From the NCBI GenBank assembly GCA_022773025.1, contig JALEZF010000105.1, forward strand, positions 1 through 41,062: a DNA stretch of 41,062 nucleotides, given 5' to 3'. The translations under genes and the position numbers were made by a program. The notes below the pieces were generated by a model, which made no database searches, was not told the origin of the DNA, and saw only the letters and a list, made by a program, of their open reading frames with translations. Of the stretch, positions 33,370 to 39,576 are shown one piece after another; the stretch's first letter is position 1, and every line of letters starts with the position of its first letter. Source of the stretch: Clostridium sp. GTDB taxonomy: Bacteria > Bacillota > Clostridia > Clostridiales > Clostridiaceae.

Positions 33370-33385
33370 GTACGAGGTGGTAATG

Positions 33386-33646
33386 ATGTGCATTAATGAT
33401 TTAAAATATGGTGATAAAGTTTTTGTAGAAGACATAATTGGATCTTCAAAATTAAATAAACGTTTGTTAGCTTTAGGTTGTATAAAGGGAACAGAAATTA
33501 CTTTTAAGGGAAAGGCTCCTTTAGGAGATCCTATATTAATCTCTATAAGAGGTTTTGATATAGCAATTAGAAAGAAGGATGCCAAGAATATATTGATATC
33601 TGATACTAAGGAGGATATTTATGCTTACAATTGCTTTGCTAGGTAA
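33386..33646 (+). CDS. feoA: Ferrous iron transport protein A
   Basis: Small cytoplasmic SH3-like protein that helps FeoB. Seen: LKYGDKVFVEDIIG, LNKRLLALGCIKGTEITFKGKAPLGDPI and the C-terminal RGFDIAIRKKDAKNI, the usual FeoA pattern. The ATG at 33386 is preferred (GAGGTGG about 5 nt upstream); ATG 33383 and GTG 33377 are in frame but too close to, or inside, the ribosome site. 86 residues. Its 3' end overlaps feoB by 26 bp in another frame, so translation is probably coupled. Under Fur control by the box upstream. Confidence 0.93.
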   Translation: MCINDLKYGDKVFVEDIIGSSKLNKRLLALGCIKGTEITFKGKAPLGDPILISIRGFDIAIRKKDAKNILISDTKEDIYAYNCFAR

Positions 33647-35396
33647 TCCTAACGTTGGAAAAACTACTTTATTTAACTCTCTTACAGGATCTAATCAATA
33701 TGTTGGAAACTGGGCAGGAGTAACCGTAGAAAAAAAGGAAGGTTTTCTCACTGAGGATATAAAAATAGTGGATCTTCCAGGTATATACGCTATGGATACT
33801 TTCTCTAATGAAGAAAAGGTATCTAAGGCCTTCTTAGAATCTGGTGAGGTGGACCTCATAATAAATATAGTTGATGCTGCTAATTTGAGTAGAAATTTAT
33901 ATTTGACAACTCAATTAAAAAAATTTAATATTCCCATGGTTTTGGTCCTAAATATGATGGACGTTGCAGAAAAAAAGGGATTGAAAATAGATACAGCTAC
34001 TTTAGCTAGAAACCTTAATTTGGACGTGCTTTCTATGGTGGCAAGTAAAAAATCCGGCATTGAAGAAGTTAAAAACTTTCTTAAAAACAAAAAATTCTTA
34101 GCTCCTTCAATTGATAATAATTATAATTTTCAAAGCGAAGAGGAAGCTTATAAATTTATAGATAATATAATTCTTAATAGCACTTTAAAAGACAATAAAA
34201 AAATAAGCAAATCCTCCTCAGATAAAATTGATAAATATTTTCTAAATCAATGGTTAGCTTATCCTATATTTTTAGGACTTATGTTTTTAATGTTTAAACT
34301 TACTTTTTCATGGATTGGCCAACCCCTATCAGATGCTTTAGATGGATTTGTCAGTGATACTTTTTCCCCATTTGTAGAAGGACTACTCTCAAACTCCAGT
34401 CCATGGTTTTCATCCTTGGTAGTAGATGGAATTATTGGTGGAGTTGGAGGCGTCATAGTTTTCGTGCCTATAATATTTACTTTATTCTTTTGTATTTCTT
34501 TTTTAGAAGACAGTGGATATATGGCAAGAATAGCTTTTCTTATGGATAAAGTAATGAGAAAAATCGGACTTTCTGGAAAAGCATTTATACCCTTTATAGT
34601 TGGTTTCGGATGCTCTGTTCCTGCTATAATGTCAGCTAGAACTTTGGAAAGTGAAAAAGATAGAAAGATGGCAGCTCTTTTAGCCCCACTGATGTCATGT
34701 AATGCAAGACTTCCTGTATATATATTATTTGCAACTGCTTTCTTTCCAAATAACAGTGACTTAGTTGTAATATCTCTGTATCTTTTAGGCATATTCCTTG
34801 CAATAGGAATGGGACTTCTATTTAGAAATACTATATTTAAAAAAGATGAGGAACCTTTTATAGTTGAACTTCCTGAGTATAAACTTCCTGATCCTAAAAG
34901 CATAGTAAAATTAACATGGGACAAAGGAAAGGGCTTTTTAAAGAAAGCTGGAACTATAATCTTTGCTATGTCCATAATAATATGGGTACTATCTCACATG
35001 AGCTTTAACGGATACGTAGAAGATGTGTCTAACGGATTCTTAGCTTCAATTGGTAGAATCATAGCACCTATATTCAAACCTTTAGGTTTTGGAAACTGGC
35101 AGTCATCAGTAGCTATTCTTACTGGACTCGTTGCAAAAGAATCTGTAGTTTCAACTATGGAAGTTGTTTTTGCGGGAAGCCATGAAGTTCTTCCTCTATT
35201 CTTTAATCAATTGTCTGCTTATGCTTTTATGGTATTTGTATTAATTTACACTCCTTGTATTGCAGTTATAGCTACAATGAAAAAAGAATTTGGAAAGAAG
35301 ATGATGTATTTTTCAATATTCTATCAGCTTGTACTCGCTTGGATAGTGTCTTTCTTAGTATATAATATAGGTGGACTTTTAATAAATATATTGTAG
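33621..35396 (+). CDS. feoB: Ferrous iron transport protein B (GTP-binding permease)
   Basis: Fe(II) importer of the cytoplasmic membrane. N-terminal G domain: G1 GNPNVGKTTL (8-17), the G2 threonine in VGNWAGVTVE, G3 DLPG (51-54), G4 NMMD (111-114), then a helical GDI-like part. Membrane domain from about 210 with the Gate motifs (GGVGGVIVFVPIIFTLFF, LEDSGYMARIAFLMD, GFGCSVPAIMSARTL, then TGLVAKESVVSTM). The 591 residues put it at the short end of the family (often 650-800). The GGAGG-like ribosome site lies inside feoA. A Cys-rich small gene follows in the operon. Confidence 0.96.
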   Translation: MLTIALLGNPNVGKTTLFNSLTGSNQYVGNWAGVTVEKKEGFLTEDIKIVDLPGIYAMDTFSNEEKVSKAFLESGEVDLIINIVDAANLSRNLYLTTQLKKFNIPMVLVLNMMDVAEKKGLKIDTATLARNLNLDVLSMVASKKSGIEEVKNFLKNKKFLAPSIDNNYNFQSEEEAYKFIDNIILNSTLKDNKKISKSSSDKIDKYFLNQWLAYPIFLGLMFLMFKLTFSWIGQPLSDALDGFVSDTFSPFVEGLLSNSSPWFSSLVVDGIIGGVGGVIVFVPIIFTLFFCISFLEDSGYMARIAFLMDKVMRKIGLSGKAFIPFIVGFGCSVPAIMSARTLESEKDRKMAALLAPLMSCNARLPVYILFATAFFPNNSDLVVISLYLLGIFLAIGMGLLFRNTIFKKDEEPFIVELPEYKLPDPKSIVKLTWDKGKGFLKKAGTIIFAMSIIIWVLSHMSFNGYVEDVSNGFLASIGRIIAPIFKPLGFGNWQSSVAILTGLVAKESVVSTMEVVFAGSHEVLPLFFNQLSAYAFMVFVLIYTPCIAVIATMKKEFGKKMMYFSIFYQLVLAWIVSFLVYNIGGLLINIL

Positions 35397-35569: not shown

Positions 35570-35614
35570 AAAGAACATGTGCAAAGCAAATTTTGTTTTG
35601 CACATGTTCTTTTT
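35568..35614. terminator. Bidirectional terminator between the feo operon and the YprB-type gene
   Basis: 18-bp perfect stem (35568-35585 and 35597-35614), loop of 11, with A/T-rich ends. It ends both the plus-strand feo operon and the minus-strand unit. Confidence 0.94.
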
Positions 35615-36404
35615 AATAGCTTTCTTTTATTACTGCTATTAGCTCTTCTTTACTTAATTCCCCTGTATTTAAGGAGTGTATTATTCGCTTTGCACACTTT
35701 TTAGATATCTTAGAATAATCCGGATTAAAATTTAATCCCTTTTTGTTTATTAAAGTTATAATTTTGAATTTTTGACCTGGACTTAATAGGTCACTACGAG
35801 AAATATAATTTCTATCTATATAATCTTTTATTATAAAAAGATATGGAAGACTAAAAACATCCTCACAATTGTGAAGTAATATGTTCTCTAGAATATTTAC
35901 GTTTCTGCTTTTCAAATAAATATTATACTGCTCCTTAGTAGCTTCACCATTCATAGAATCTATTCTATCTATTCCTATATATTTTTCAAAAGCTCTAAGA
36001 TTACACTCATCTAGTCCTATGGATTTTGCATAAGGAGTGAGCATCCTATAAAGATCATAGGTATTTTTCTTTGCTTCAATTTTAACTCCATACTTTATAG
36101 ATTTCTCCAAAATATATGGTTCATCTAATGACTTTCCATTGAATGTAGCCCAGCTGTCATATCTATTTAAAAGTTCTGCTGATTTTTCAATAAGCTCTCT
36201 TTCTTCATTTAAATCTTCACATAAAAACTGCTCTATCATAAACCTTTTTCCCTCTATATACCCTAAAGCTATAGACCATATAGAACCTAGTTTACTATTT
36301 AGTGATGTCACTTCTATATCAAAATAAATAATTTTATTTAAAGCATACACTTTTATTATTCTATTTTCTATATCTAATTTTTTTGCATACTTTCTATATA
36401 TCAT
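35613..36404 (-). CDS. YprB-type RNase H-like domain protein
   Basis: Predicted 3'-5' exonuclease-fold protein (DEDD superfamily). All blocks of the YprB family are seen: YFDIEVTSLNS (D and E ligands), ATFNGKSLDEPYI, the DLYRMLTPYAKSIGLDECNLRAFE region with YIGIDR, and LLHNCEDVFSLPYL (H, D). The N-terminal 20 residues and C-terminal 60 residues are extra; the tail (FKIITLINKKGLNFNPDYSK) is basic. 263 residues. GAGGGG lies upstream of the ATG. It is 33 bp downstream of the ArgRS-like gene, so the two are probably one operon. YprB in other firmicutes often sits with a helicase (YprA); none is present here. Confidence 0.85.
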   Translation of the reverse strand: MIYRKYAKKLDIENRIIKVYALNKIIYFDIEVTSLNSKLGSIWSIALGYIEGKRFMIEQFLCEDLNEERELIEKSAELLNRYDSWATFNGKSLDEPYILEKSIKYGVKIEAKKNTYDLYRMLTPYAKSIGLDECNLRAFEKYIGIDRIDSMNGEATKEQYNIYLKSRNVNILENILLHNCEDVFSLPYLFIIKDYIDRNYISRSDLLSPGQKFKIITLINKKGLNFNPDYSKISKKCAKRIIHSLNTGELSKEELIAVIKESY

Positions 36405-36437: not shown

Positions 36438-37826
36438 TCATATCTCATCTATAGTTTGTACTCCTATTAGCTTCATAGCATTATTAAAGACTACTTTATA
36501 AGCCTTAATTAGCTTTATTTGATATGGCTCATACAAAGGATTCTCACCTTCTATTGTTAGGATAAATTTATTAAATTTCTGTGTAATATCTATAATATAT
36601 CGCGTTATTACATATGGTTCTAATAAATTTATTGCCTCTAGGATTTTTTTATGGAACTCACCTAATATTTCTGCAAGTTCCCAAGAAGATGTTTCTATAG
36701 GACCTTTCATAAGACAATTAAATTCTATATCTTTTGATTTATCTAAGATATTTAATGCTGTTATATAGGAATGTTGTACATAAAGATAACTTTCATCATG
36801 GAAGTTCATAATGTCATTTAATAAAATGTTCTTATCTTTTTCCCTTGGACTTTTGAGATAAGAAAATACAACGGCTTCCTTTAACACTTTTTCTTCTATC
36901 CTATCTTCATAATCCCATAAAGAATTTGCATAGTGAAGATTTTTTTTCATATTTCTCTTAAATTCATTGAGAAAGCTATCTATATCAATAAAACTATAAT
37001 CCTTATACTTTTCAAATCTTACCATTCCCAATGGTATATATTCTAAAGAGTCTTCATCTAAGTCTATTTTCAGAACCTGTGAAGCTTTAGTTAATTGGTT
37101 AAAGCTGATTTTCTTATCTTTTCTTCCTATAATCATATACCTATTAAAATCATAAAATTTCTTTATATATATTAGCTTTCCTAGAACTTTAGCTTCTTTA
37201 GATACTTCTCCAAAAATATTTTCTGCTATAAAGGGCATCATATTATAATCTTTAAATTCAATGACTTTTGCACAATTTTTATATTTAATCTGTTCTTTTT
37301 TCATTAAGCCATCTGTTATATTCTTTAAGAAGTCCTTATCTATATAATCAAAATCACAACTGTCATATACATTGTAGCTTTGAGATTTAAATATATTATA
37401 TAAAGATCTTTTTATAACCTCTGAAAAATTTATCCTTTCCCCTACTCCCTCTGTCATCACAGAAAATGAATCTTCTATATATATTACTTTTTCACTGCCA
37501 ATATCAGATTTCCCTAGTTTATCTCCATTTAATAAAATGTTATCTATTGTAGAGTTCATAAAAACACTTTTATTTAAATAAAAATTTAAATAAACTCCAT
37601 GGATTTCTACTCTTTCAAAGATATCACTATTAAATTCCTTTTTTATTTCCTTGGCAATCATAAATGGATTTGTTAGAGATTTATTGAGCAATTTAAAGCA
37701 TGGCAAAGAAAAATCCCCCAACTCTTTTTGTGGAGGTATCTCTATTAACTCTTCTAAAAACTCCTGACCTAAATTTAATATATCATTGATAGCAGCAGCC
37801 AAGATACTCTTATTATAGTTCATCAT
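36438..37826 (-). CDS. Arginyl-tRNA synthetase paralogue lacking catalytic motifs (pseudo-enzyme)
   Basis: Collinear with class Ia arginyl-tRNA synthetase but shortened (about 462 versus about 560 residues). N-terminal Add-1-like domain: IPPQKELGDFSLPCFKLL, then GVYLNFYL. Where the HIGH motif should be, the text aligns as VMTEGVGERINFSEVIKRSLYNI (about 126-148): HIGH has become GVGE. The GDWGTQFG motif is absent. The KMSKS region after IPLGMVRFE reads KYKDYSFIDIDSFL, with no lysine-serine loop. The C-terminal DALR anticodon-binding domain is well kept (LYVQHSYITALNIL and LLEPYVITRYIIDITQKFNKFI, ending KLIGVQ). Catalysis is very unlikely; tRNA-Arg binding or regulation is possible. Start: ATG 37826 (or 37823) fits AGAGG spacing better than ATG 37835, which abuts it. 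Confidence 0.85.
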   Translation of the reverse strand: MMNYNKSILAAAINDILNLGQEFLEELIEIPPQKELGDFSLPCFKLLNKSLTNPFMIAKEIKKEFNSDIFERVEIHGVYLNFYLNKSVFMNSTIDNILLNGDKLGKSDIGSEKVIYIEDSFSVMTEGVGERINFSEVIKRSLYNIFKSQSYNVYDSCDFDYIDKDFLKNITDGLMKKEQIKYKNCAKVIEFKDYNMMPFIAENIFGEVSKEAKVLGKLIYIKKFYDFNRYMIIGRKDKKISFNQLTKASQVLKIDLDEDSLEYIPLGMVRFEKYKDYSFIDIDSFLNEFKRNMKKNLHYANSLWDYEDRIEEKVLKEAVVFSYLKSPREKDKNILLNDIMNFHDESYLYVQHSYITALNILDKSKDIEFNCLMKGPIETSSWELAEILGEFHKKILEAINLLEPYVITRYIIDITQKFNKFILTIEGENPLYEPYQIKLIKAYKVVFNNAMKLIGVQTIDEI

Positions 37827-37851
37827 ATTCTCCATCCTCTAAGTGACATAC

Positions 37852-38064: not shown

Positions 38065-39576
38065 ATGCATTTAGGTATAATAGACATTGGTTCTAACTCA
38101 GTTAGATTAATAATTGCTGAAATTCAGAAGAACGGTGGTTATAAAGTAATAAATGATGTAAAAGAATCTTTAAGACTTGGAATGGATGTAGAAATAGATG
38201 GTTTCATATCTGAAGATAAAATAAATGCCACCATAGATACACTTAAGAATTTTAAAAATTTATGCAGCTATATGAAAACTGCAGAGGTAATAACAGTAGC
38301 TACAGAAGCTCTTAGGAAAGCTTCTAACAAAGAGGATGTCATCTCTAGGATAGCTAAAGCTGTAGACCTTGATGTCCGAGTTTTAAAAGGGGAAGAAGAA
38401 GCTTATTTAGACAGCGTTGCTGTTTTAAGCAGTTTCTACACTAAAAGCTCTCTTGTAATAGATATAGGCGGTTCTAGCACAGAATTATCCCTGCTTAAAG
38501 ATAACAAGGTATACAAATATACCTGCTTACCTTTTGGCTCTATAAATTTAACTCATAGATATGATTTGACCGATATAGTGATTCCTAATAAAGAAGATGA
38601 TTTAAACTCCTTTTTATTAGATGAGTTCAAAAAAATCCCTTGGCTTCAAGATGAAAACATAGATTCATTGATTGCCATTGGAGGAGCTGCTCGAAACCTT
38701 GGACGCATGGATAGAAAACGAAAGAGATATCCTTTAGATGTATCTAGCGGCTATAGTTTTTCAGACATAGACCTTAACCAAATGTTCAATATCCTTAAGA
38801 GCAAGAATTTGAAGCAACGTTTGAAGGTAGATGGCATTTCCAAGGATAGAGCTGATATAATAGTTGCCTCCACAGCCATACTTGCTAATCTTACATCCTT
38901 TACTAATATCAAGGAAATCACTGTAAGCGGCAAAGGTCTTCGTGAAGGAATTCTATGTCAATACGTAAATGACACTACAGATACCCACAAAGATATATTG
39001 GATTTTTCATTAGAGTCCATAATGTGCGACCATAATCTAGACAAAAATCATGCTTATAATGTCTATAATTTGACTAATACCTTGTTTGAAGAATTAACTT
39101 CTATCCTTGAGCTAGATGATGGTTCCTATGAAAAGATATTAAAAGTAGCATGTTTATTGCACGATTCTGGTATAAGCATAAGATATTATGATCACCATAA
39201 ACATTCTTTTTATATAATACTAAATTCGCCTATAAATGGACTTAATCATAAGGAACTTATAATGGCTGCTTCTATAGCATACTGTCATAGAAGTATGGTG
39301 CCTCAAATAAACACCATGGCCTTTACAGGAATTATAAATCGACTTGATGGTGAAGTTATAGGCAAACTTTCTATTCTTTTAAGAATAGCTGAAGCCTTAG
39401 ACCAAAATATGATGGGTGTTGTAAAAATAAAGAGATGTTCTATAGATATAGATAAGGTTACTGTATTCATATCAGGCCTAAAAGATCCTTCTTTGGAAAT
39501 AGAAAAAGCTATGCTAAATAAGGATAAATTTAAAGAGATTTTCAAAAGAGATTTAGATATACAATTTGAAGAGTAA
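38065..39576 (+). CDS. Ppx/GppA phosphatase with C-terminal HD domain
   Basis: Exopolyphosphatase / guanosine-pentaphosphate phosphohydrolase family, acting on polyphosphate or pppGpp. ASKHA fold N-terminal part at about 1-300: IDIGSNSVRLIIAEI, the catalytic Glu region TVATEALRKASN, LKGEEEAYLDS, and IDIGGSSTELSLL (phosphate loop 2). The C-terminal HD-type helical part is at about 310-500, with LLHDSGISI, HHKHSFYIILNS and GLNHKELIMAASIAYCH. 503 residues, the long form with the HD domain. AAGGAG lies 11 nt before the ATG. Monocistronic. Polyphosphatase and pppGpp activity cannot be told apart from the sequence. Confidence 0.92.
   Translation: MHLGIIDIGSNSVRLIIAEIQKNGGYKVINDVKESLRLGMDVEIDGFISEDKINATIDTLKNFKNLCSYMKTAEVITVATEALRKASNKEDVISRIAKAVDLDVRVLKGEEEAYLDSVAVLSSFYTKSSLVIDIGGSSTELSLLKDNKVYKYTCLPFGSINLTHRYDLTDIVIPNKEDDLNSFLLDEFKKIPWLQDENIDSLIAIGGAARNLGRMDRKRKRYPLDVSSGYSFSDIDLNQMFNILKSKNLKQRLKVDGISKDRADIIVASTAILANLTSFTNIKEITVSGKGLREGILCQYVNDTTDTHKDILDFSLESIMCDHNLDKNHAYNVYNLTNTLFEELTSILELDDGSYEKILKVACLLHDSGISIRYYDHHKHSFYIILNSPINGLNHKELIMAASIAYCHRSMVPQINTMAFTGIINRLDGEVIGKLSILLRIAEALDQNMMGVVKIKRCSIDIDKVTVFISGLKDPSLEIEKAMLNKDKFKEIFKRDLDIQFEE

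Follow-up and report, generated by a model that had tools for sequence, protein, structure and literature searches.

A displaced resident arginyl-tRNA synthetase gene, probably kept as a protein without catalysis, in Clostridium

Why would a Clostridium genome keep an open reading frame for an arginyl-tRNA synthetase (ArgRS) from which the catalytic motifs have disappeared? Such a frame lies in the window analysed here, a stretch of 41,062 nucleotides from Clostridium sp. (assembly GCA_022773025.1, contig JALEZF010000105.1). A preliminary description, made from the letters alone, regarded it as a synthetase paralogue without catalysis, kept as a protein and plausibly responsive to tRNA-Arg. 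Below, a resident argS that looks inactivated is called dead for brevity.

An ArgRS-derived frame at the ancestral argS locus

The frame and the domains recognised in its product are as follows.

36438..37835, minus strand: dead ArgRS (pseudo-synthetase), open frame, 465 aa from the first ATG
37575..37811, minus strand: N-terminal ArgRS domain PF03485, aa 9-87 (Pfam, E 6e-14), with the D-loop pocket G-x-Y-L-N-F kept
36444..36779, minus strand: DALR anticodon-binding domain (DALR_1, PF05746), aa 353-464 (Pfam, E 1e-11)

The ATG at 37826 or 37823 is the likelier start (461-462 aa), because the orthologue in Clostridium cadaveris begins at a matching MNY. By descent the protein is an ArgRS: the N-terminal domain, the DALR domain and the argS locus are all present, and the two Pfam matches, together with the alignment to intact ArgRS, confirm the end-to-end derivation that had been proposed. 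What it lacks are the attributes of a working enzyme, namely the HIGH and KMSKS motifs, a score above the curated cut-off and a complete catalytic core. The Pfam scan gave no match to the catalytic domain PF00750, and the TIGR00456 argS model scored 110 bits, below its cut-off of 261.65. In an alignment with 54 intact relatives, GVGE stood at the position of HIGH and KDY plus gaps at that of the KMSKS loop; YATRDLA was replaced by KEAKVLG, GDWGTQFG was absent, and 104 residues in total were missing, with intact-enzyme residues 152-248 gone as one run. The motif losses and the gap of about 100 core residues noted in the preliminary description were thus reproduced, and the orthologue in C. cadaveris shows the same loss. 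These features suggest that the ArgRS-derived protein of the window is without catalysis.

The genes around the frame speak to its origin.

35613..36404, minus strand: RNase_H_2 family protein, 33 bases downstream of the dead ArgRS and possibly co-transcribed with it; part of the argS neighbourhood
38065..39576, plus strand: Ppx/GppA homologue, divergent; synteny marker of the argS locus
33377..35396, plus strand: feoA-feoB; synteny marker of the argS locus

In relatives, an intact ArgRS of ~563 aa lies between feoAB/RNase_H_2 and ppx/trmB/M50, and the entire block is present in two genomes (G154 and G155). The same place is occupied by the window gene and by its orthologue in the same genus (C. 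cadaveris IFB3C5, G001), and trmB and two RNase_H_2 genes lie near the dead gene. Across the family, each of the 12 dead genes is flanked by genes whose sequences match the surroundings of an intact argS in some relative; for G198, the match is to G197 and comprises four flanking genes, at 60-89%. Since the dead gene sits where relatives carry the intact enzyme, it is best read as the ancestral argS, and the second argS of this genome, P0002, as the newcomer. An origin by duplication was rejected on the same grounds, so the earlier term paralogue gives way to a resident argS displaced, at its ancestral locus, by one that probably spread horizontally. The nearby RNase_H_2 and trmB genes were likewise dismissed as recruited partners, since intact argS has them alongside too. 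As a side observation, the RNase_H_2 gene at 35613-36404 shares 73% identity between the genome of the window (G000) and C. cadaveris, compared with 85-94% for the other five neighbours.

A second argS and the leaders of both genes

P0002, a complete argS of 587 aa, lies on another contig of the same genome, so the absence of a second argS, which the preliminary description had named as an objection to its own reading, does not apply. A search with the window protein at E 1e-3 did not find it, the two sequences being too unlike. A CRISPR direct repeat array (RF01316, twelve matches) lies ~7 kb from this working argS, on contig C111 (L316 14035-14785). In a quick tree of 32 P0002-type rows, made without bootstrap, the branching disagreed with the RpoB tree and with the genus codes: the G000 and G001 copies joined those of G080 and G086, and the G194 copy (genus g14) fell inside a g17 group. 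This conflict speaks for repeated horizontal transfer, by which the P0002 type was probably acquired. Two copies each occur in G198 (L320) and G097 (L190), those of G198 in tandem and each with a T-box.

We surveyed 206 genomes of one family, calling a P0002-type argS at E below 1e-200, and found it in 31. Among these 31 genomes, the resident argS looks dead in 11 (G000, G001, G066, G097, G117, G084, G098, G080, G198, G210 and G163) and keeps HIGH in 13 (G004, G031, G086, G114, G139, G154, G155, G159, G191, G194, G195, G206 and G207). No resident was seen in the remaining seven (G091, G099, G110, G111, G193, G211 and G212), of which three are assemblies less than 90% complete; the argS model was run on G211 alone, and weak matches were counted among the seven, so degraded copies are possible. 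The seven genomes suggest that the resident copy can be dispensable. The 175 genomes without the P0002 type comprised one with a dead gene (G062), 168 with a canonical match, four with none and two with a partial one. HIGH was present in all 45 canonical genes whose motifs were checked, these being picked by match rank rather than at random, and the other 123 could include motif-dead full-length copies.

A P0002-type argS thus accompanies the dead gene in 11 of 12 genomes. The exception is G062, in which no second argS was seen even with the argS model, and whose five nearest relatives have one. In G163, the P0002-type copy (L138) carries many stops and frame changes in its first half; these are more suggestive of indel errors in the assembly than of decay, and an assembly cause is likely behind both G062 and G163. 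Counted by genome and ignoring kinship, the association of the dead gene with the P0002 type gave a Fisher p of 1e-10, or 1e-5 when the P0002-negative genomes were restricted to the 45 that were motif-checked. A kinship-corrected pairs test on the RpoB tree, with G211 omitted from the dead/live counts and G062 from the P0002 counts, pointed in the same direction in 4-5 of 6 pairs and never in reverse, at p 0.0625-0.125, which is not significant.

The leaders of the two genes differ in kind. Upstream of the dead gene in the window lie two elements.

37955-37927, minus strand: sigma-70 type promoter TTGATA-17-TATAAT, 11/12 consensus bases
37883-37852, minus strand: intrinsic terminator-like hairpin with T6, between the promoter and the start of the dead ArgRS

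The gene's own promoter had been recognised before; the hairpin that intervenes is an addition. The same layout, with a matching promoter TTGTTA-17-TATAAT, precedes the C. cadaveris orthologue. T-boxes of intact relatives end in a similar hairpin (by eye), and the hairpin of the window may be what is left of a lost T-box leader. The terminator, being retained, argues for low expression of the dead gene. No T-box was detected before the window gene at either the gathering or a permissive threshold, nor before any of the 12 dead genes at permissive thresholds, with positive controls detected in one run. In genomes without a P0002-type copy, an Rfam T-box leader preceded the resident argS at 12 of 13 loci tested, and the thirteenth (G079) still carries the T-box core sequence. 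Where both genes are present and the resident keeps HIGH, a T-box was found before the resident in 8 of 13; the other five comprise three with the core sequence, one with part of it (G114) and one with none (G031). This last resident, with the T-box gone, GDW changed and HIGH kept, looks like an early stage. The P0002-type argS carried a T-box in 8 of the 9 copies examined, from 8 genomes, the exception being G080. By eye, the leader of the G066 dead gene retains decayed T-box sequence with the terminator, those of G000 and G001 retain the terminator alone, and in G117, G084 and G098 a promoter stands directly before the dead gene. The leaders of dead genes therefore look like wrecked T-boxes. 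As for the tRNA-Arg-responsive role once suggested for the protein, the tRNA-responsive leader belongs to the working argS, and the dead gene is without one.

Repeated loss, selection and the parts retained

The dead genes differ in how far the loss has gone. Four are full length with a broken motif at HIGH, namely G066 (HVGD), G097 (QLGD), G117 (EVEN) and G163 (KVNH), and seven are short (G084, G098, G062, G210, G080, G000 and G001). In G198 the HIGH motif survives, 82 residues of the core are gone, and the remaining sites have become GDFETQFG, CRSMDIA and KLLIRKE. Five of the 12 dead forms, G066 (L145), G097 (L146), G117 (L162), G163 (L147) and G198 (L078), exceed the argS cut-off, so that classing them as dead depends on the motif reading; more generally, it is from the motifs that the dead forms appear inactive. 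In five of the six origins delineated below, the short forms have lost a common segment within intact-enzyme residues 152-254; G001 and G080 are missing another stretch beyond it, and nine residues at 254-262 are absent from G084 and G098. Open frames of 456-585 codons are kept in all 12 dead genes. In contrast to these, an argS relic in Fontibacillus phaseoli (L210 5797-7306) is broken across two frames that overlap; it retains HIGH, and by eye some of the core is absent.

A careful RpoB tree, built for 30 genomes, placed the 12 dead genes in six clades, split by relatives with intact residents, and the dead/live trait required 6 changes (G211 not scored). By parsimony, dead genes arose at least six separate times in the family. 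A single dead lineage was rejected by this tree and also on a quick ArgRS tree without bootstrap (p-AU 3e-7), in a clade test that used 22 of the intact rows and left out G062. Long branches mark the ArgRS trees, in which G000, G001, G062, G084, G098 and G210 are badly placed, so we relied on RpoB for these; one ArgRS tree omits 17 of 85 resident-type proteins, 3 being partial or of another type and 14 closely related to rows that stayed in.

Change in the dead genes is fast, with 51% identity between the two sister species compared with 73-94% for six neighbours, and they nevertheless bear the marks of constraint. By the NG86 method, dN/dS was 0.345 (0.24-0.47) for G000-G001, whose dS is near saturation, 0.374 (0.28-0.50) for G066-G097, 0.452 (0.36-0.59) for G066-G117 and 0.298 (0.21-0.41) for G084-G098; two other estimators gave 0.11-0.36 for the dead pairs. 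Shared losses suggest that both members of each pair were already dead at their split, least surely for G066-G117. By NG86, working P0002-type pairs gave 0.03-0.05 and neighbours 0.04-0.16, indicating that the dead genes are constrained, though much less than usual genes. Furthermore, neutral simulations (300 runs a pair, substitutions only) averaged 20-37 in-frame stops per pair and in every run yielded at least 10, whereas none was observed in the seven genes compared. A neutral relic, or pseudogene, was rejected on these two results, which uphold the earlier view that the intact frame is kept as a protein. In G084-G098 (L076/L077), the dS of the dead gene was 0.40, about twice that of its neighbours (0.15-0.20).

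We compared which parts of the protein are retained, scoring the residues that at least 95% of intact residents have in common (G013 and G056 left out of the residue counts). The retained fractions are given in the order N-domain, HIGH-to-GDWGTQFG block, deleted segment, KMSKS region and DALR.

Seven short dead proteins: 0.80, 0.18, 0.05, 0.34, 0.54
Other five dead proteins (four full length and G198): 0.89, 0.74, 0.64, 0.63, 0.74
Working P0002 type: 0.30, 0.58, 0.38, 0.53, 0.58

The order N-domain, then DALR, then core held in 6 of 6 origins. Five of the 12 dead proteins have lost the tyrosine that aligns with yeast Y565, a residue with a role at the anticodon. In the N-domain, all 12 retain the Y and N of the pocket G-x-Y-[LIV]-N-F, which correspond in the alignment to F82 and N84 in the E. 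coli enzyme; these two, according to the portion of PMC8975779 consulted, contact A20 of the tRNA D-loop. The same portion gives wild-type kinetics for yeast mutants of the D-loop pocket, and the pocket may therefore matter little there.

What the dead protein may do

Catalytically dead synthetase-like proteins are known, mostly as old duplicates; HisZ and other synthetase-derived regulators keep the synthetase fold without charging. HisZ works in complex with HisG, and the window protein differs in that no HisG-like partner was seen for it. Relative to the class Ia ArgRS of TIGR00456, the dead gene appears as a direct descendant, with both terminal domains and the locus of the relatives' intact argS, and is set apart by the loss of the four motifs, the 104 residues and the T-box. 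NrtL (NF045898, ArgS-related anticodon-binding protein) is likewise ArgRS-related and by its name not a synthetase, but the matches are weak: the window protein scored 11 bits (E 0.17) against a cut-off of 340, the best of six other dead proteins scanned scored 52 bits, and an intact resident ArgRS scored 76. Several argS per genome with differing T-box status have a parallel among Firmicutes, where Bacillus cereus ATCC 10987 has three argS, one of them under a T-box (PMC2494555); that work, in the part consulted, counts tRNA ligases and is silent on catalytically dead ones. Vertebrate DALRD3, which resembles ArgRS and has a DALR domain but none of the catalytic motifs of a synthetase, takes METTL2 to tRNA-Arg (PMC7237682, as excerpted). 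The window protein resembles it in having a DALR domain without the catalytic motifs; it differs from the excerpted account in that DALRD3 is reported in vertebrates and has no recognisable domain in its N-terminal part, whereas the ArgRS N-domain is the best-kept part of the window protein. In the searches made of open-access literature, no title or abstract dealt with such dead ArgRS proteins in clostridia.

The account that we favour, with rather better than even confidence as a whole, is that of a displaced resident argS kept as a non-catalytic tRNA-binding remnant by virtue of its N-domain. The dead gene would be the species' original argS at its ancestral locus. The arrival, by horizontal transfer, of a P0002-type ArgRS under T-box control would have made it dispensable for charging; it would then have lost its T-box leader, its catalytic motifs and ~100 core residues, and stayed as a protein under purifying selection. 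On the sequence comparisons, this origin and retention in place are highly probable. The function is a closer call, to which we give slightly less than even weight: the dead protein may be a non-catalytic tRNA-Arg-binding protein whose N-terminal domain recognises the D-loop or elbow. The task of this domain, perhaps to hold or present tRNA-Arg, would be one that is beyond the newcomer, whose N-domain differs. Selection sees mainly the N-domain, which the newcomer does not share; non-catalytic tRNA-Arg binding is the simplest function that fits.

The main rival is slow decay without function, in which a displaced argS is on its way out and still open by chance or since broken products do harm. 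The residents that went unseen in seven P0002-positive genomes, the graded series from T-box loss through motif loss to core deletion, the high evolutionary rates and the frame-broken Fontibacillus relic would all suit such a course; nevertheless, we consider it unlikely, given the absence of the 20-37 stops per pair that neutrality predicts, dN/dS well below 1 and an N-domain retained better than the core in every origin. That the protein is still active as an ArgRS, by itself or as the complementing subunit of one, through motifs that have moved elsewhere in the sequence, is very improbable: the HIGH of G198, the five dead forms above the argS cut-off and the lack of another argS in G062 could be read in its favour, but the window protein lacks all four motifs and 104 residues, and a complete argS is present in the same genome.

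Two further proposals also involve tRNA-Arg. In a more specific form of the preliminary suggestion, the dead protein might bind uncharged tRNA-Arg as a sensor or buffer and so adjust how T-boxes regulate the new argS or arginine genes. The T-box on 8 of the 9 new argS copies examined and on none of the dead genes, the direct promoters in G117, G084 and G098 (by eye) and the kept N-domain, with DALR less well kept, are compatible with this; yet the Pfam scan revealed no regulatory or DNA-binding domain, the anticodon tyrosine is lost in 5 of 12, and the proposal is purely inferential, so we judge it improbable. Slightly less probable again is an adaptor role, in which the protein would deliver tRNA-Arg to an enzyme that modifies or processes it, in the manner of DALRD3 with METTL2. 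The precedent, in the excerpt of PMC7237682, is a similar ArgRS remnant with DALR kept, and trmB and two RNase_H_2 genes lie close by; however, the same neighbours accompany intact argS in relatives, which makes them inherited rather than recruited, and no partner is known.

For the displaced resident argS that we prefer, living relatives offer a series: a second argS with a T-box gained, the resident T-box lost, motifs lost, a common core segment removed, and a short protein kept or a gene not found. The series also carries a warning for annotation, as the curated argS model would label the five dead forms that pass its cut-off as arginine--tRNA ligase. With at least six repeats in one family, it amounts to a natural experiment on which part of a synthetase serves a purpose besides charging, and it points at the N-terminal domain. 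We raise, tentatively and as a generalisation that we hold to be rather unlikely, the idea that clostridial ArgRS has a second, charging-independent role, mainly N-terminal, and that only this role stays under selection once a foreign ArgRS takes over charging, so that residents repeatedly turn in place into dead tRNA-binding proteins dropping the same core segment. Were that true, nature would have supplied, in the dead copies, separation-of-function mutants that reveal a hidden role of ArgRS.
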